The position numbers and the translations under genes are program-made. From positions 1-37,663 of the forward strand of contig CANMVX010000035.1 in the NCBI GenBank assembly GCA_947501115.1: a stretch of 37,663 nt of DNA. Reading direction: 5' to 3'. The notes beneath the pieces are model-generated. The model saw only the letters and a list, made by a program, of their open reading frames with translations, made no database searches and was not told the origin of the DNA. Positions 2,858 through 36,486 of this stretch are shown one piece after another; the first letter of the stretch is position 1, and each line of letters opens with the position of its first letter. Source of the DNA: Haliscomenobacteraceae bacterium. GTDB lineage: Bacteria > Bacteroidota > Bacteroidia > Chitinophagales > Saprospiraceae.

Positions 2858-5731
2858 TTATTTAACCACTATATTGATCATTCTTTTTGGAACAACAATA
2901 ATTTTCACTACGGTTAGACCCTCTGTCCATTTTTTAATTGGATCGAGCTCCATTGCCGCTGCTTTAATGTCTTCTTCCTTGCCTTGAACATCAAAAACTA
3001 AGGTTGCTCTCAGTTTACCATTGACACTTACGGGATATTCAATAGCAGATTCTTCGAGGTGCTTACTTTCAAAAACAGGAAAACCAGCCTGATGCACAGA
3101 ACCTTCATTGCCCAACTGATGCCACATTTCTTCGCTTAAAAATGGCGCAAATGGTGCCAGTAGGGTTAAAAAAGGTTCGAGTACCTCTCTATGATGAACA
3201 TTCATTTTTTGCCAATCATTCACAGCAATCATGAAGGCACTCACACAAGTATTAAAGGAAAAACGTTCAATATCGTCCTGAATCCTTTTGATCGTTGCGT
3301 GTAAAACTTTGAGCGCTTCAGGTGTTGCGGGAGTTTCAGTTACCAACCATTTACCGTCTGCGTCTCTAAACAAATGCCATACTTTTCTCAAAAATTTATA
3401 GACACCATCTATACCTTTTGTATCCCAGGGTTTCGCTTGTTCAACAGGACCGAGGAACATTTCATACATTCTAAAGCAATCTGCCCCATATTTTGATACA
3501 ACATCATCAGGATTGATCACATTGTACAATGATTTCGACATTTTGCCTACTTCAGAATGGGTTATCAGCTGAAAAGTATCTCCTTCATTTGATGGAGTAA
3601 AAACACCTTGTTCAAGCACCCCACCCTCAGATTCAAAAACGGCAGATACAAATTCAGGTCTCCACGAAATAAACTGACTTACCCCATTTTCATTGAGATG
3701 CGAGCCCTGCATGTTTCCATAATCTGTAATATAATCTACCAATACAGGAATTCTGGTAAAAGCAAGACCCTTTGCTTCTTCATTTTTCAACAGAGAGGCT
3801 GAAATAAATCTACTTTTACCTGCTACTTTTTCCTTTTGCAAATAAATAGATTCCACTACCCCTTGAATCATACCTTGATTGATCAATTTTTTATATGGCT
3901 CAATGGTAGGTACTTTACCCAGATCGTAGAGAAATTTATGCCAAAAGCGACTATACATTAAATGCCCCACTGCATGTTCCGTACCTCCGACATACAGATC
4001 TACATCTTTCCAATAATTCAAGGCATTTTCCCCGGCAAAAACCTGATCGTTTGTAGGATCCATATAGCGCAAAAAATACCAGGAAGAACCAGCAAAACCT
4101 GGCATGGTATCTGTTTCACGTTTAAACCCATTTGGAAGATTCACCCAATCCTGCGCTCTGGCAAGAGGAGAAACAGCACCTGAAGCGGGTTGAAAATTTT
4201 CTAAAACGGGCAATTCCAAAGGAAGTTCCTCTTCACTTAAGGGTATGGCAATACCATCCTCATCGTATATAATGGGAAAAGGTTCCCCCCAATATCTTTG
4301 ACGACTATAGATAGCATCGCGCAATTTATAATTCACTTGTCTGGAACCAATATTTTTAGCCTCAATTTCCTTCAACATAAATTCAATGGCTTCAGGAACC
4401 TCCATGCCGTCAAGGAATTCAGAATTAATCATTAAGCCCAGTTTATCATTACGCGTTGCCCCCGGATAATTTGACTTATCAATCACGTCAATAATTTCCA
4501 GCCCAAATTTAACGGCAAATAAATTATCGCGATCATCGTCACTTGGCACGGCCATAATAGCCCCTGTACCATAATCCTTCAGGACATATTCACCTATATA
4601 AATAGGAATTTTCTTTCCATTAAACGGATTAATAGCATAAGCGCCAAGGAACTCTCCGGTAACTTCCTTAACTTCGGCCATTCGCTCCCGTTCAGACCTG
4701 CTCTGCACGTAGTCTAAATATTTTGCCACTTTCGGAGCCTGATCTTTTGTAGTCAACAAAGAAACCCATTCGTGTTCTGGCGCTAAAACCATAAAAGTAA
4801 CGCCAAAAAGGGTATCGGGACGGGTGGTGAAAATTTCCAGTTGAACATCGTGCCCTTCCACGCCGAAGAACATTCTTGCGCCTTCCGAACGACCAATCCA
4901 ATTGGATTGCATTTTTTTCATGGCATCAGAATAGTCCAGGGTCTGCAGGTCATTCAATAATCGTTCAGCATAAGCTGTGATTCTTAGCGACCACTGCATC
5001 ATTGGTTTTTTCTCTACGGGATGCCCTCCCCTTTCAGACAAACCATCTTTCACTTCATCATTTGCTAACACGGTCCCCAATGCTTCACACCAATTAACAT
5101 AGGTAACTTTTCTGAAGGCCAGACGAAAGTTCATCAACATATTTTCCTTTTCCCCTTTGGATTTTGCGTTCCATTCTTCCGCACTAAAGTGTTCAATGTC
5201 ACTGTGAACGGCATTTAAATGGCTGGAGCCATGGGTACTAAAATGATTTTCGAGTTCGGAGACAGGTTTAGCCATATTGGCTTTGGTGTCATAATAATGA
5301 GAAAAAAGTTGCAGGAAAATCCACTGAGTCCATTTATAATAAGATGGATTAGACGTTTGCACCTCTCTGTCCCAATCGAAACTAAATCCAAGATTATCTA
5401 ACTGACCTCTGTATCTGGCAATATTTTGAGCAGTAGACATAGCAGGTTGTACCCCCGTCTGAATAGCGTATTGTTCTGCCGGCAGACCGAAGGCATCATA
5501 TCCCATTGGATGTAAAACATTGAAACCTTTGAGCCTTTTATATCTGGCATAAATGTCAGAAGCGATGTATCCGAGAGGATGTCCTACATGCAGACCGGCG
5601 CCAGACGGGTAAGGGAACATATCCAAAACATAATATTTTGGTTTATCGGAAGTGTTACTTACTTTGTACACTTTATTTTCTTCCCAAAACTTTTTCCACC
5701 TGGATTCAATGTCTGAAAATCTGTATTCCAT
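2858..5731 (-). CDS. leuS: Leucyl-tRNA synthetase
   Basis: A 957-aa class I aminoacyl-tRNA synthetase that charges tRNA-Leu with leucine in the cytoplasm. The HIGH signature is HVGH at residues 48-51 (context YPSGAGLHVGHPLGY). The KMSKS loop is intact at about 730-734. The CP1 editing domain lies between them, with the threonine-rich TTRPDTLFG motif. The C-terminal anticodon-binding part contains LLAPFAPFLSEEMWHQLG, typical of this family. The length is near the bacterial norm, slightly long. The ATG at 5731 gives the usual N-terminus (MEYRFSDIESRWKKFW). The gene stands alone on this strand, divergent from the ftsX group and convergent with the PorE-like gene. A TATTTTTG element upstream may be its -7 box. 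Confidence 0.97.
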   Translation of the reverse strand: MEYRFSDIESRWKKFWEENKVYKVSNTSDKPKYYVLDMFPYPSGAGLHVGHPLGYIASDIYARYKRLKGFNVLHPMGYDAFGLPAEQYAIQTGVQPAMSTAQNIARYRGQLDNLGFSFDWDREVQTSNPSYYKWTQWIFLQLFSHYYDTKANMAKPVSELENHFSTHGSSHLNAVHSDIEHFSAEEWNAKSKGEKENMLMNFRLAFRKVTYVNWCEALGTVLANDEVKDGLSERGGHPVEKKPMMQWSLRITAYAERLLNDLQTLDYSDAMKKMQSNWIGRSEGARMFFGVEGHDVQLEIFTTRPDTLFGVTFMVLAPEHEWVSLLTTKDQAPKVAKYLDYVQSRSERERMAEVKEVTGEFLGAYAINPFNGKKIPIYIGEYVLKDYGTGAIMAVPSDDDRDNLFAVKFGLEIIDVIDKSNYPGATRNDKLGLMINSEFLDGMEVPEAIEFMLKEIEAKNIGSRQVNYKLRDAIYSRQRYWGEPFPIIYDEDGIAIPLSEEELPLELPVLENFQPASGAVSPLARAQDWVNLPNGFKRETDTMPGFAGSSWYFLRYMDPTNDQVFAGENALNYWKDVDLYVGGTEHAVGHLMYSRFWHKFLYDLGKVPTIEPYKKLINQGMIQGVVESIYLQKEKVAGKSRFISASLLKNEEAKGLAFTRIPVLVDYITDYGNMQGSHLNENGVSQFISWRPEFVSAVFESEGGVLEQGVFTPSNEGDTFQLITHSEVGKMSKSLYNVINPDDVVSKYGADCFRMYEMFLGPVEQAKPWDTKGIDGVYKFLRKVWHLFRDADGKWLVTETPATPEALKVLHATIKRIQDDIERFSFNTCVSAFMIAVNDWQKMNVHHREVLEPFLTLLAPFAPFLSEEMWHQLGNEGSVHQAGFPVFESKHLEESAIEYPVSVNGKLRATLVFDVQGKEEDIKAAAMELDPIKKWTEGLTVVKIIVVPKRMINIVVK

Positions 5732-11729: not shown

Positions 11730-11730
11730 C

Positions 11731-23846: not shown

Positions 23847-24617
23847 TTAGTTGCAAACAATCTGATTTCTGAATCTCAGGTCAAGGTTTCGGTATTTACG
23901 CCAACCTACAAAAGGCATAGCTTCTTTGTAAAATACCTTTAACTTTTTCCATTTCTGCATAGAATCATCAAATTCGCCAAATATAATTTTCTGATCCCCA
24001 ATCATGGGAACCAATGTAAATTCTCTTTTAAGATTCACATGAACTTGCACCAACATTGATTTTAAAAAAGGATCAGCCTCAATCTCGTTACAAAGTTTAA
24101 ACAAATCATGTAGTGCATTATCCTTAGTTAAAAAATCAGGAGAGAAAGGAGGATATTCACCTGTAGCCGTGATAATGTTCACAGCAAAATGCTTCGATAG
24201 AGGCAACTTTATGCCCTCCTCATCTAAATAATACTGGTCTCCACGACTACTAATGACCCTTACAATAGGTTTACGCTGTAAAATATGAATACCTAAACTA
24301 TTTCTGCTATCCAAAAAAACTTCGGCATCTTTAATAAACGAATTTTTTTCAAGCAGCGTTTCAATTCTGTTCAAGTCAATGGTTTTGAAAGACTGTCCTA
24401 TTACCTGAAAGCCCAAACCTCTGTCTAACTCAACGAGAACGTCTTCCTCCTCAATTAAAAATGAACTATCTGGCAAAGCTTCAATATCTGTGTTTATCTC
24501 AACAATAGGTTTCTCTTTCCTCATATCCACAGCCAGAATAATAAGGCCCAATATAAGAAATCCCCCTATTTTTACCAAAAAAGACTTCCATTTCCCCGAA
24601 GAAATAATATTTTTCAT
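23847..24617 (-). CDS. ftsQ: Cell division protein FtsQ/DivIB
   Basis: A 256-aa bitopic division protein. It has a short cytoplasmic tail, one transmembrane segment (about residues 14-31, VKIGGFLILGLIILAV), then a periplasmic part with a weakly conserved POTRA-like region (about 40-115) and the beta domain (about 120-240). FIKDAEVFLDSRNSLGIHILQRKPIVRV contains the R/KPxxRV pattern typical of FtsQ. It bridges early and late divisome components. Position supports the call: it starts 2 bases after the murC stop and precedes ftsA. FtsQ is poorly conserved in this phylum, so the identification rests on both topology and synteny. Confidence 0.88.
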   Translation of the reverse strand: MKNIISSGKWKSFLVKIGGFLILGLIILAVDMRKEKPIVEINTDIEALPDSSFLIEEEDVLVELDRGLGFQVIGQSFKTIDLNRIETLLEKNSFIKDAEVFLDSRNSLGIHILQRKPIVRVISSRGDQYYLDEEGIKLPLSKHFAVNIITATGEYPPFSPDFLTKDNALHDLFKLCNEIEADPFLKSMLVQVHVNLKREFTLVPMIGDQKIIFGEFDDSMQKWKKLKVFYKEAMPFVGWRKYRNLDLRFRNQIVCN

Positions 24618-24619
24618 CT

Positions 24620-27145
24620 TTATTCTTTTAAGGATTTGGCATAAAATAAATCAACAATCTGGGGTAACATCTTGTCAAAATCACCCGCTCCCAACATTAG
24701 TAATATTTCAGGTTGAACCTGATGAAACGTTTCTAATAACTCATCTGTTTCAATCAATTTTTTCTTTAAAATACTAATTTTTTGGAGTAAAAGAGCGGAA
24801 TCTATGCCTGGTATTGGCTGTTCTCTGGCTGGATAGATTGGCAGAAGGAAGAGACTATCTACAGCTGAAAGTGCCTCAGCAAATCCGTCTAAAAAATCTT
24901 TAGTTCTACTAAAAAGATGAGGTTGAAAAACGGCAGTAATTTTTTTACCAGGATAAAGTTCTCTTGCCGCTGATATTACTGCATTTAATTCTGTTGGATG
25001 ATGAGCATAATCGCTGATAATGACCATTTTGTCATTAACCAACTTAATATCAAACCGCCTTTGAATACCTTTAAATGTGAGTAAATTTTCACGAATAGCC
25101 TCCTCGCTTACGCCCAGTCGAAGGGCTATGGTAATAGCTACTACTGCGTTTAAAACATTATGTCTGCCCGGGAGAGAAAATTTTAGGTCTTTTATTAGAA
25201 CATTCTTATGTTGATAATCAAAGACCAGACCATTTGACTCCAATCTAATATTTACCGCTCTATAATCTCCCTCCTCTATACCAAAGGAATGTTTATTTTC
25301 AGTATTCGGAAATAAGTCAACGGAAGCTTGTTGAATCAGTAGCAGTCCATCTTCGGCCGTTTGAGCTGCAAAGGGTCTAAATCCTGTGTCTAGAAGAGAT
25401 TCTACAGAACCGTAAATATCAAGATGATCGGCGTCTGTTGATAAAATCGCCGCTATTTCCGGATGAAGATGTAAGAAAGACCTATCAAATTCATCGGCTT
25501 CAATAACGACCCAATCGGATTGACCGGAAACATAATTACCCCCAAAATTTTCAACAATTCCCCCAAGAAAAGCGGTACATGAAACTCCACCTTCTTTTAA
25601 TAAATGGGTGGTAATGGAAGAGGTTGTTGTCTTTCCGTGCGTACCTCCGATAGCAATGGTTTTCATATTTTTACTAATCAAACCAAGAATCTCCGCTCGT
25701 TTCATAAAAGGAAGACCACTACGCTGGAAAAATGCACAAATAGGATGTGAAAGAGGAACGGCCGGTGTATAAATTACGAGATCAATCGCCAGAGTATGAG
25801 GTTCAGTATAATTATTTTCGTAGCAAATATCCATGCCTTCTACCGATAGCTGATCCGTCAGCACTGTCTGGGTCTTATCGTACCCATATATTTTGACGCC
25901 CCTTTCATTAAAATATCTGGCAATGGCACTCATACCAATACCACCGATACCAATAAAATAAATATTTTTCAGATGTTGTAATGTCTTCATATTGCCACCT
26001 TTTTTCTTGTCCGAAGGGACAAATTGAAGAATTATATCCGCTAATTTTTCAGCTGCATCTGGAAAACCCAATCGAAGGGCATTTCTACCAAGGGCAGCTA
26101 AACATTCTTCATCTTGTATTAACTTAAAAACTTCAGGAAGGAGATCATCCTTAACATGATCGTCTTTTATGGTCATAGCCGCAGCGTTCTGCTGCAAACT
26201 CAAGGCATTTTTTGTTTGATGATCTTCTGCCACATTGGGAGAAGGAATTAAAATAGAAGGCTTACCCAATAAACAAATCTCCGCGATGGTCAGTGCACCT
26301 GCTCTGCACACCACTAAATCAGCTGCCTGATAGGCCATAGACATGTCTTCAATAAAAGGCATAACATTAATCTGGGGTAAGTTACCTGATTCACTTTCCA
26401 TGCATAAGGAGGCATAAAACTTTCCACACTGCCATATAAATTGTACTTCCTGATTTGCCAAAAGTAAATCTTTACCAAAGATCATTGCATTATTCAAGGT
26501 TTTGGCGCCCAGGCTTCCCCCCGCAACAAAAACGATCTTTTTTAATGGATCCAACTTAAAATATTGACAAGCTGTGTCTCTATCAGGTAATTGAGAAGGA
26601 TATAAAGCACTTCGAACAGGATTTCCCGTTAAAACCATCTTTTTTGCCGGAAAAACCAAATCCATATCTGGAAAGGCAACCCCAATTTTATCTACAAATC
26701 TGGCCAGAATTTTATTGGTTACACCTGCATAAGAATTTTGTTCTTGAATAACCGTAGGGATTTTCAATAATACAGCGGCAAATAAAGCAGGACCACTGGC
26801 ATAACCTCCAACACCAACCACCACATCTGGCTTAAATCGGTGAAGGATTGAGATTGCCTGCCAAATACTATGAATCACTTTTATTGGAAACAGGATATTT
26901 TTAGAACTAAAACTTCTATCAAAACCACTAATCCATAAACCTTTGATAGGATAACCTGCTTTCGGAACGGCCTGCATTTCCAGTTTCTCCTGAGCACCAA
27001 CAAATAAGATATCGGAATCCGGATATTTTACTTTAATAGCGTCAGCCATAGCAATCGCAGGAAAAATATGACCACCTGTTCCACCGCCACTGATAAGTAT
27101 TCGGGGAGCGGCACTATCCAATTTTTTATTGATTTGTTGCAACAT
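24620..27145 (-). CDS. murG-murC: MurG-MurC fusion frame: lipid II GlcNAc transferase joined to UDP-MurNAc-L-alanine ligase
   Basis: One uninterrupted 841-codon frame. Residues 1-385 are MurG, which adds GlcNAc to lipid I at the membrane: ISGGGTGGHIFPA (18-30) and the second GT-B motif region VVCRAGALTIAEI are intact. Residues 386-841 are a full-length MurC (456 aa), the cytoplasmic ATP-dependent ligase that adds L-Ala to UDP-MurNAc: FIGIGGIGMSAIARY (about 397-411), the P-loop GGTHGKTTTSS (about 500-510) and DYAHHPTELNAVI. The join reads SDKKKGGNMKTL, where the Met is a plausible native MurC start preceded by AAGGTGG. The join lies at six A residues (26000-26005 on this strand), and one A fewer would separate the genes with an ATGA overlap. 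It is therefore either a true fusion, a slippage-controlled pair, or a base error. The start overlaps ftsW by 20 bases. Confidence 0.9.
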   Translation of the reverse strand: MLQQINKKLDSAAPRILISGGGTGGHIFPAIAMADAIKVKYPDSDILFVGAQEKLEMQAVPKAGYPIKGLWISGFDRSFSSKNILFPIKVIHSIWQAISILHRFKPDVVVGVGGYASGPALFAAVLLKIPTVIQEQNSYAGVTNKILARFVDKIGVAFPDMDLVFPAKKMVLTGNPVRSALYPSQLPDRDTACQYFKLDPLKKIVFVAGGSLGAKTLNNAMIFGKDLLLANQEVQFIWQCGKFYASLCMESESGNLPQINVMPFIEDMSMAYQAADLVVCRAGALTIAEICLLGKPSILIPSPNVAEDHQTKNALSLQQNAAAMTIKDDHVKDDLLPEVFKLIQDEECLAALGRNALRLGFPDAAEKLADIILQFVPSDKKKGGNMKTLQHLKNIYFIGIGGIGMSAIARYFNERGVKIYGYDKTQTVLTDQLSVEGMDICYENNYTEPHTLAIDLVIYTPAVPLSHPICAFFQRSGLPFMKRAEILGLISKNMKTIAIGGTHGKTTTSSITTHLLKEGGVSCTAFLGGIVENFGGNYVSGQSDWVVIEADEFDRSFLHLHPEIAAILSTDADHLDIYGSVESLLDTGFRPFAAQTAEDGLLLIQQASVDLFPNTENKHSFGIEEGDYRAVNIRLESNGLVFDYQHKNVLIKDLKFSLPGRHNVLNAVVAITIALRLGVSEEAIRENLLTFKGIQRRFDIKLVNDKMVIISDYAHHPTELNAVISAARELYPGKKITAVFQPHLFSRTKDFLDGFAEALSAVDSLFLLPIYPAREQPIPGIDSALLLQKISILKKKLIETDELLETFHQVQPEILLMLGAGDFDKMLPQIVDLFYAKSLKE
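25987..26005 (-). other. Possible murG/murC junction: A6 run, SD-like site and hidden ATGA
   Basis: On the minus strand the bases read AAAAAAGGTGGCAATATGA. In the frame given, AAA AAA GGT GGC AAT ATG joins MurG to MurC. If one A is lost, the frame reads AAA AAG GTG GCA ATA TGA, so MurG would end KKKVAI and its TGA would overlap the MurC ATG as ATGA. The AAGGTGG before the ATG can serve as a ribosome binding site for MurC in either case. Confidence 0.75.
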
Positions 27146-28289
27146 CCGTACTTATGTTTGAAGATTCTACAAATTTACTTACCGAAAGAATGATACCCAA
27201 TGAGATACAATTCATGATTATAGAAGTCCCACCCAGACTTATCATAGGTAAAGTTACCCCAGTGACGGGAACCAGGTGAGTAGCCACCGCTATATTTATA
27301 AAAGCCTGAAAAACAAAACTGAAACCAAGACCTGTAACTACGATGGCACCAAAGGCCTTTGTACTTTTTGTTACCAGACGTGTTATTCTAAAAAAGAAGC
27401 CCAAATAAAGAGAAATAACAAAGAAACCGCCCAATAAACCATATTCTTCCACTAAAATGGCATAAATAAAGTCGGCGAAAGAAGAAGGAAGAAAATTTCT
27501 TTGAATACTCTGCCCAGGGCCTGTACCAAAGAAACCACCATTAGCTATAGCAATCTTAGACTGCTGTACCTGAAAGCCTCCATCAGAGTCCGTGGTAAAC
27601 TCTCTGATCCTTTCTATCCAAGTAGCCAATCTTACCAAATCCGGAAAAAAGTGACCTAAAAGAATGAGTATTGAAAAAGCAATAATAGCCAGTACAACTA
27701 ACATTAAAATATATTTAACGGCTACCCTTCCAACAAACATCATAGTAATACAGGTAGAAAAAAGGAGCAGCGCCGTAGATAAATCGGCGGGAGCAATGAG
27801 AAAACAAATGATGATTACAGGCAATATAAGGGGTAAAAAGGCACTTTTGAAATCCTTTATATTCGACTGTTTCGAGGAAATCGTTCTGGCTAAATATAAA
27901 ATCAGGGCTAATCGTGCAAAATCTGACGATTGAAAGGTTAAACCTAAAGCAGTAATTTTAATCCACCTTCGGGCAGAATTTATATCTGCACCAAAGAACA
28001 AGGTAAAAATAAGTAAAGGAATCGCCACCGCGAATAAAAATGGTGCTATCCTATGAAAACGTAGATAATGCAACCTATGAAGGACATACATGATAAAAAA
28101 TCCAAAAAGAACGATGAAACCTTGTTTTATGATATAATGTTCGGTGTTTCCATCTTGTTCCTTATGTGCAAGACTCCCAGTAGAAGAATAAACGCCTAAG
28201 AAAGAAACCAATGTCATCAGAGAAATAAGCACCCAAATGACTCTATCTCCCTTTAATTCTGTTTTAAGATTTGATATAAATCCCGTCAT
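27126..28289 (-). CDS. ftsW: SEDS-family peptidoglycan polymerase FtsW
   Basis: A 387-aa polytopic membrane protein of the SEDS family, which polymerises lipid II into glycan strands at the septum together with its partner PBP. About ten hydrophobic segments fit the family. Typical motifs are INSARRWI (about residues 103-110), QSSDFARLALILYLA (about 119-133) and NGGFFGTGPGQS (about 249-260). Others are FADFIYAILVEEYG (about 270-283) and HLVPVTGVTLPMISLGGTS (about 336-354). Its ATG overlaps the murD stop as ATGA and its end overlaps murG by 20 bases, so translation is probably coupled through the cluster. FtsW is preferred over RodA because of the dcw context. Confidence 0.95.
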   Translation of the reverse strand: MTGFISNLKTELKGDRVIWVLISLMTLVSFLGVYSSTGSLAHKEQDGNTEHYIIKQGFIVLFGFFIMYVLHRLHYLRFHRIAPFLFAVAIPLLIFTLFFGADINSARRWIKITALGLTFQSSDFARLALILYLARTISSKQSNIKDFKSAFLPLILPVIIICFLIAPADLSTALLLFSTCITMMFVGRVAVKYILMLVVLAIIAFSILILLGHFFPDLVRLATWIERIREFTTDSDGGFQVQQSKIAIANGGFFGTGPGQSIQRNFLPSSFADFIYAILVEEYGLLGGFFVISLYLGFFFRITRLVTKSTKAFGAIVVTGLGFSFVFQAFINIAVATHLVPVTGVTLPMISLGGTSIIMNCISLGIILSVSKFVESSNISTDVATNQ

Positions 28290-30879: not shown

Positions 30880-32358
30880 TTAATTATTTAAGTCTTTAAA
30901 ATCACCTAATAAAGTTTCGCGAAGGACAGCCTTGTCATCAAAAGGATATCGAACGCCCAATATTTCCTGGTAAGGTTCATGACCTTTCCCAGCCACTAAC
31001 AGAATATCTCCATTTTTAACTAAATGACAAGCGGTTCGTATCGCTTCACGCCGATCTGTTATTTGCAGCGTGTTCTTTAATTGATCTGAGGAAAGTCCGG
31101 CAGCCATTTCATTTATAATGGCCACCGGTTCCTCTGTTCTGGGATTATCTGAAGTTAATATTATTAAATGGCTCCAATCGGCAGCAACTTTTGCCATTTT
31201 AGGTCTTTTCTCGCGATCTCTGTCACCACCACAACCAATAACGGTAAGCACATTTACGCTTTGTGGTTTCATTTTATGAATGGTTTCCAAGACTTTAAGC
31301 AAGGCATCTGGTGTATGTGCATAATCAACAATCGCCATTACGTTAGTCTGAGGAACCTTAAAATAATCGAATCTTCCGGCGGCGGCGGTTAAACCGCTCA
31401 GCTTGGTTCTAAGCAAGGTATCTTCTATACCAAGCAGAGAAGCGGTAGCATAAACAGCCGTTAAATTATAGGCATTAAATTCACCCATAAGTCTGGTAAA
31501 CATCTCTTTACCGTTTATCTCTATATGCAAACCCTCCAAACCATTCGTTATCAGGCGAGTTTTAAAAGAAGCCATTCTTTTTAACGCATAGGTATGAATA
31601 TCGGCTTTGGTATTTTGAACCATAACCATTCCCCTTTTGTCATCAATATTTACTAAAGCGAAAGCATTTTTGGGCAAGTCGTCAAAAAACTGCTTTTTAG
31701 CTTTTAAATAATGGTCAAAAGTTCCGTGATAATCTAAATGATCATGTGTAATATTAGTAAAAATAGCCCCCTTAAACTGAATACCTGCAATTCTGTGCTG
31801 GTGAATGGCATGGGAACTTACCTCCATGAAAACATACTGACAACCCAAGGCAAGCATTTCAGAAAAAAGACCTTGTAATTGCGCGGCGTCCGGGGTGGTA
31901 TGCGTAGCTGGAATAATCTTATCAGCTATTTTAACTTCAATGGTTGAAATTAATCCGCAAGTATAACCTAAAGAGGTAAACAGGTCAAATAGCAAGGTTG
32001 CTGTGGTAGTTTTTCCGTTTGTACCTGTAACTCCAACGACGTTGAGCCCCCGGGTTGGATAATCATACCAGGCAGACATCAACCAACCAAAGGAGTAGCC
32101 TGCATTTTCCACTATCACGACACATATATCATCGGGAATATTTACGTCACAATATTCACAAACAATACAGGTTGCACCTTGTGAGACTGCATTTTGAATA
32201 AACTGATGACCATTGGTTTGAACACCCTTTATTGCAACGAAAACAGACCCTGCAACCACACGACGTGAATCGGCAGTTACCCCTGTAACAGAGATATTTG
32301 CATGACCGCTTTGAATGCGATGAGGCTGAGAGATCAGTAGATTCTTTAATTCTTTCAT
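30880..32358 (-). CDS. murE: UDP-MurNAc-L-Ala-D-Glu--2,6-diaminopimelate ligase
   Basis: A 492-aa cytoplasmic ligase that adds the third amino acid of the stem peptide. The P-loop is TGTNGKTTT (111-119). The motif SDNPRTEEP (about residues 402-410) contains DNPR, which in the Mur family marks binding of meso-diaminopimelate rather than L-lysine. Other family segments are THTTPDAAQLQGLF (about 151-164), VSSHAIHQHRIAG and YAHTPDALLKVL. The start overlaps the ftsI stop as ATGA. The DNPR motif implies a meso-DAP peptidoglycan, in agreement with Bacteroidota. Confidence 0.97.
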   Translation of the reverse strand: MKELKNLLISQPHRIQSGHANISVTGVTADSRRVVAGSVFVAIKGVQTNGHQFIQNAVSQGATCIVCEYCDVNIPDDICVVIVENAGYSFGWLMSAWYDYPTRGLNVVGVTGTNGKTTTATLLFDLFTSLGYTCGLISTIEVKIADKIIPATHTTPDAAQLQGLFSEMLALGCQYVFMEVSSHAIHQHRIAGIQFKGAIFTNITHDHLDYHGTFDHYLKAKKQFFDDLPKNAFALVNIDDKRGMVMVQNTKADIHTYALKRMASFKTRLITNGLEGLHIEINGKEMFTRLMGEFNAYNLTAVYATASLLGIEDTLLRTKLSGLTAAAGRFDYFKVPQTNVMAIVDYAHTPDALLKVLETIHKMKPQSVNVLTVIGCGGDRDREKRPKMAKVAADWSHLIILTSDNPRTEEPVAIINEMAAGLSSDQLKNTLQITDRREAIRTACHLVKNGDILLVAGKGHEPYQEILGVRYPFDDKAVLRETLLGDFKDLNN

Positions 32359-35809: not shown

Positions 35810-36274
35810 TTAATCATCCAATCGTTGTTTACCGCGACCCAGTATTTCTTCAGCCAAATCGGAAAAATCATCTGGCTCATCATCCATGAGCTGATCAAAA
35901 ACCTCCTTAGACCACATTTCAATCCTGTCATTAAACGCAGATAAAATCACCTCTTTTTCAATACCAGCATATTCTAACAATCTGCGGGAAACCAAAATTC
36001 TATCAGCGCTATCCATCTCAACTTTTTGAGCACCCCGATAAAAATATCTAACCAATTCCCTATTTTTTTTACTATAAACATTTAAATCATTAATCTCTGC
36101 TGTTGTTTTTAACCAAACCTCTTCCGGGTACAACATCAAACATTTTTCAAACCCTCTATTCACAACAAAACTATAGGTTTCCCTTTTACCCAACTGACTT
36201 ATTAGTCCACTCGGCAGACGCATACGACTCTTATCATCGATTTTACATTCGTACTCTCCGAGTAGTTGATTCAT
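35810..36274 (-). CDS. mraZ: Transcriptional regulator MraZ
   Basis: A 154-aa AbrB/SpoVT-like DNA-binding protein with two MraZ repeats, the first near LLGEYECKIDDKSRMRLPS (residues 4-22) and the second near KVEMDSADRILVSRRLLEY (about 84-102). MraZ forms an oligomeric ring that binds short direct repeats upstream of its own operon and modulates dcw transcription. The C-terminal 25 residues are acidic. It is the first gene of the cluster. Its upstream region carries three direct repeats that match known MraZ boxes, which supports autoregulation. Confidence 0.97.
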   Translation of the reverse strand: MNQLLGEYECKIDDKSRMRLPSGLISQLGKRETYSFVVNRGFEKCLMLYPEEVWLKTTAEINDLNVYSKKNRELVRYFYRGAQKVEMDSADRILVSRRLLEYAGIEKEVILSAFNDRIEMWSKEVFDQLMDDEPDDFSDLAEEILGRGKQRLDD

Positions 36275-36342: not shown

Positions 36343-36486
36343 TTTTATAAAAATATATAGAAAAAAATCATTATCTAAATCTCGAAAAATAAAAACAATA
36401 CTATCAATCTTTTACATATTATTATTTTATTTAATTTATTTTGAATAAAAAATTATTTTTGTACCAAGCTATTAATCAAGTGTTTA

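Follow-up and report, generated by a model that had tools for sequence, protein, structure and literature searches.

A murG-murC reading frame joined by one private base in a Haliscomenobacteraceae draft genome

We found that murG and murC, separate genes in six of six congeners, are read as one uninterrupted frame in a single draft assembly of a Haliscomenobacteraceae bacterium. The join is not a trait of the genus but a private insertion of one base in one assembly, because all six congeners are one base shorter at the site. We lean slightly towards a genuine, very recent replication-slippage mutation as the source of this base, judging from sequence comparison, and we give somewhat less than an even chance to a mistake in the consensus or assembly, or to a minority strain variant that entered the consensus, in which case the organism would have ordinary ATGA-overlapping murG and murC genes. 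These two weightings are judgements and not calculations.

The MurG-MurC frame and its setting

The window, by which we mean the whole stretch of 37,663 nucleotides that was analysed, is contig 35 of a draft genome of 4.70 Mb assembled into 175 contigs. Its minus strand carries a gene cluster in the order ftsI, murE, mraY, murD, ftsW, murG, murC, ftsQ, ftsA and ftsZ. MurD, MurG and MurC passed the curated cut-offs of their models, and FtsW was the best match for its frame, yet under the cut-off. The other six frames we take to be ftsI, murE, mraY, ftsQ, ftsA and ftsZ from their translations. The features that matter here are as follows.

24620..27145, minus strand: single MurG-MurC frame of 841 codons (open frame, two NCBIfam equivalog models over cut-off, five Pfam domains)
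25991..27145, minus strand: MurG part, residues 1-385 (TIGR01133; closest solved structures are the MurG chains 3s2u and 1f0k)
24620..25990, minus strand: MurC part with its own ATG, residues 386-841 and stop (TIGR01082; closest solved structures are MurC chains, best 9ir5)
26000..26005, minus strand: A6 run with the private extra base (one base shorter in six of six congeners)
25987..25990, minus strand: ATGA with the MurC ATG; its TGA is the MurG stop in the congeners and out of frame in the window (junction comparison)
32355..32358, minus strand: ATGA overlap of ftsI and murE, a comparison junction (window and six of six congeners; gene names read from translations)
28286..28289, minus strand: ATGA overlap of murD and ftsW, a comparison junction (window and six of six congeners)

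The preliminary description had reported a complete MurG and a complete MurC in one frame with no added domain, and the model searches agree with it. In the assembly as given, an ATG-initiated frame of 841 aa runs without interruption through 24620-27145. The murG model TIGR01133 matched residues 15-372 with 293.1 bits against a cut-off of 250.25 (profile positions 7-353 of 353), and the murC model TIGR01082 matched residues 394-827 with 367.8 bits against a cut-off of 335.1 (profile positions 1-445 of 449). Both matches thus exceed the curated cut-off across the length of the model, and five Pfam domains follow one another in order along the frame. As assembled, these 841 codons make a MurG-MurC fusion gene in the sense that one frame holds both enzymes. 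The start of the second enzyme has not been lost: the ATG of MurC is intact and in frame as codon 386, and we therefore see no sign of adaptation to the fused state.

An AlphaFold2 model of the fusion, built from four sequences, had a mean pLDDT of 74.0 and a pTM of 0.51, and its placement of the MurG half against the MurC half is unreliable. The last long MurG helix stops at residue 373 and the first MurC strand starts at 394, which predicts a linker of about 20 residues with the confidence minimum at 383-385. In an alignment, linkers of other uninterrupted MurG-MurC frames were of a similar order.

Two further observations concern the surroundings. In the murC/ftsQ region (window 24000-27500), identity to the congener G005 was about 97% at 24000-25000 and 84-87% at 25500-27500, with mostly 92-97% elsewhere; the drop looks like allele exchange. 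A one-base deletion at 36347 and a ten-base deletion at 36478, private against all five covering congeners, sit in the spacer upstream of the frame 35810-36274, which is presumably mraZ from its translation.

The junction in six congeners

The plus strand reads T6 at 26000-26005, as first described; the minus strand reads ACAAGAAAAAAGGTGGCAATATGAAG, with ATGA at 25990-25987. The corresponding site has one base fewer in each of the six congeners (G001-G006), being A5 in G002, G003, G004, G005 and G006 and AAATT in G001. It had been pointed out that one A less would end MurG in a TGA overlapping the ATG of MurC, and this is the actual state of the congeners: in all six, MurG is a stop-to-stop frame of 387 codons, MurC is a separate frame (loci L003-L008), and the two overlap in ATGA. 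The ATGA overlaps noted earlier at ftsI/murE and murD/ftsW are likewise present in the window and all six congeners. The murG/murC junction of the congeners resembles these two other junctions of the cluster as an ATGA-overlapping, probably translationally coupled pair, and the window differs in that the extra A shifts the upstream stop out of frame. In the congeners, MurC would probably be made by re-initiation after termination of MurG at the overlap. If the sixth A is real, ribosomes would instead run through, and the main product would be an 841-aa protein in which MurG and MurC are tethered by the linker, each keeping its domains, as in the uninterrupted frames of other lineages of the order; some free MurC might still arise from its intact ATG.

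A search for the same join in the congeners found none of six fused. Since all of them have two genes, separate genes are the older arrangement within the genus and the added base is a private feature of the assembly, which supports the earlier suggestion of separate ancestral genes now joined by one more A. Relatives with five A residues had been named as a finding that would expose the fusion as an error or as unexpressed; such relatives exist, and they exclude a fusion throughout the genus but leave undecided whether the sixth A is present in this genome. The window is 95.2% identical to G004 over 27.7 kb, and on a tree of MurC sequences its own row nests among the unfused congeners. Among the matches listed from the 40 genomes searched first, its own included, only its own was an uninterrupted spanning match. 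The idea of a functional fusion of long standing in the genus could appeal to the uninterrupted frames known in other lineages of the order, but with no congener fused and with this nesting we consider it extremely improbable.

The preliminary description also offered slippage or +1 frameshifting at the A6 run as a source of fused as well as free MurG. Conservation is expected of a programmed slippage site. The A run does immediately precede the ATGA overlap, as such a site might, but it is not conserved, given the A5 of five congeners and the AAATT of G001. Six bases are also short against the nine at which, according to PMC1088944, a large share of bacterial genomes bear signs of selection against slippage; that length depends on the organism and is shorter in some. 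A working slippage or frameshift site is thus poorly supported and in our estimate very unlikely.

Genuine mutation or base error

To weigh the sixth A, we compared coding sequence with relative coverage, which came to 105,098 bases and contained 329 A/T runs at least six long, the junction run among them. Of the private indels in gene bodies, the insertion at murG/murC was the only one that clearly changed the frame without compensation; a possible further case is L087:3449, which falls within an ORF for one of the three relatives checked. Within the window, it was the one private uncompensated frame-changing indel in an ORF relative to the congeners, and the remaining private differences, of one base or longer, fell in spacers (e.g. 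11730, 36347 and 36478). Four further 20-kb stretches (L068, L075, L081 and L087) were compared with G002, G004 and G006, some events being covered by a single relative. Here, the events common to all covering relatives were outside ORFs, compensated, or 5' of the first ATG (L081:3623); compensated pairs within ORFs were left uncounted (L068 16153-16161 and L075 17511/17520). When 13 private or near-private sites were rechecked, three of them (window 11730, 36347 and 36478) returned no relative match. As a rough estimate, 15 out of 279 gene-relative pairs had a displaced stop; one single-base difference in the spacer near 11730 accounts for four of these.

Two of the stretches contain dispersed repeats (L075 at about 3425-3720 and L081 at about 3708-4324), which give rise to the bulk of the matches, dozens per genome, in G002, G004 and G006; matches to the L075 repeat fall on both strands.

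With no other clear private frame-changing indel in the 105,098 coding bases, the assembly appears to have a low error rate. The comparison lends no support to the idea of an indel-prone assembly, and a high error rate can be excluded on these sequence data. An error at the junction would, moreover, have to hit a position at which two genes become joined, and such positions are few. Base errors nevertheless arise most often in homopolymers, and this added A is a singleton in a homopolymer of a draft genome in 175 contigs, all six congeners are one base shorter, and the start of MurC is intact. Many singleton frame changes in genomes are expected to be sequencing errors, although the source says so of another class of singletons (PMC3711429). 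For a genuine replication-slippage insertion in the A run before the ATGA overlap speak its privacy against six of six congeners, the movement of gene ends between these species seen in the displaced stops, and the apparent tolerance of the fusion, given the uninterrupted frames in G052, G393 and G123 and in G821 and G842. Against it, no second genome with A6 is known, and the private events outside ORFs show that indels are no rarity close to gene ends.

Uninterrupted MurG-MurC frames in the order

We searched for further MurG-MurC frames at the level of the family (398 genomes including that of the window, of which 355 matched at 1e-100), the order (396 genomes, 76 with a match at 1e-205) and the phylum (395 genomes, 156 with a match at 1e-150). 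The samples overlap and only genomes above the match thresholds were judged, so that the counts of fusions are minima. As an open-frame figure can span stops, we accepted only matches free of internal stops and then checked the DNA. Among the matches listed, four were stop-free and spanning in the family search (own, G052, G393 and G123); the order search gave own, G052 and G393 together with G821 and G842 (family f75, genus g307), and the phylum search gave none besides own.

G052, G393 and G123 (L178, L161 and L162), from three genera of the window's family, each have one frame on the DNA, running from stop to stop over 846, 875 and 843 codons respectively. Over their 827 aa, the frames of G821 (L220) and G842 (L221), which are two species, share 90.6% identity; of the codon differences between them, 142 are synonymous and 78 non-synonymous. 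Both cut-offs were passed by the four genomes scanned (G052, G393, G123 and G842), the MurG part of G842 barely so (250.5 against 250.25). Like the window, all five have two complete enzymes, MurG first, and no added domain. Unlike the window, they have no ATG at the usual start of MurC, and the G821/G842 frame is common to two species. Since this ATG is absent, these frames look older than that of the window. We scanned the 45 codons before the conserved IGIGG motif for start-type codons in frame. There were GTG at -28 and -3 in G052, TTG at -27 in G393, ATG at -37, GTG at -25, TTG at -23 and ATG at -1 in G123, and a lone TTG at -23 in G821/G842. From these codons, G052, G393 and G123 may keep a weak separate MurC start, above all the TTG of G393.

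Several candidates proved not to be fused. The open frame of 1047 in G024, which suggested a fusion with an insert, consists of two ORFs of 377 and 470 aa; fifteen loci (L163-L177) with open-frame figures of 858-1107 are not fused; and in 13 Pelagibacteraceae loci (L038-L050) with one match spanning residues 17 to 831-833, MurC has its own ORF of 465 aa. In many loci of the family (e.g. L143, L151 and L010), murG and murC share a frame and are separated by hardly more than a stop codon, and loss of one stop could therefore fuse them.

The MurC tree had 44 rows after a motif filter had removed four of 48 (G821, G842, G032 and G033). G052 paired with the unfused G154 (100/92), with the unfused G223 next (100/96), and G393 paired with the unfused G012 (100/99); G123 was on a long branch with no resolved place. 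The joins in G052, G393 and the window are separate events, because each groups with unfused relatives; this count covers these three, with G123 and G821/G842 (family f75) outside it.

MurG-MurC had initially been thought an uncommon fusion. It is indeed rare in the genomes sampled, but it is already in print and the order holds more cases. The legend of Figure 3 in PMC4929429 names Cellulomonas gilvus among reported MurG-MurC fusions, and PMC6420597 lists the type, noting that the two enzymes are not consecutive in the pathway. The C. gilvus fusion, known here from the publication only, is alike in being one gene with MurG followed by MurC; the window differs in that its join is one private base, its MurC ATG is kept and its congeners are unfused. 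The MurE-MurF fusion of Bordetella pertussis, described as an expressed protein, likewise places two Mur enzymes on one polypeptide (PMC6420597), but it joins consecutive steps, whereas MurC and MurG are non-consecutive and the window's fusion is known from sequence alone. Joining MurC and MurG is not a simple hand-over of substrate, because the steps that they catalyse do not follow one another; both publications take such fusions as a sign of a larger enzyme complex (PMC4929429 and PMC6420597). Our literature search found no publication specifically addressing MurG-MurC fusions of Bacteroidota, which is not proof of absence. The kind of fusion is already known, and the window, if real, is at most a young member of it.

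If the sixth A is an error, it serves as a warning that one homopolymer base can place a false bifunctional enzyme in databases; the common frame of G821/G842 is independent of this base. If the recent fusion is true, the window and its unfused sister G004 (about 95% DNA identity over the window) would form a natural before-and-after pair. It is possible, though we hold it as a tentative reading of the sequences, that independent joins of MurG and MurC arise again and again in this order of Bacteroidota, with the window as a newborn case, caught before the start of MurC decays, and G052, G393, G123 and G821/G842 as older stages. Such repeated joining would point to a benefit of holding the first ligase and the lipid II synthase together.
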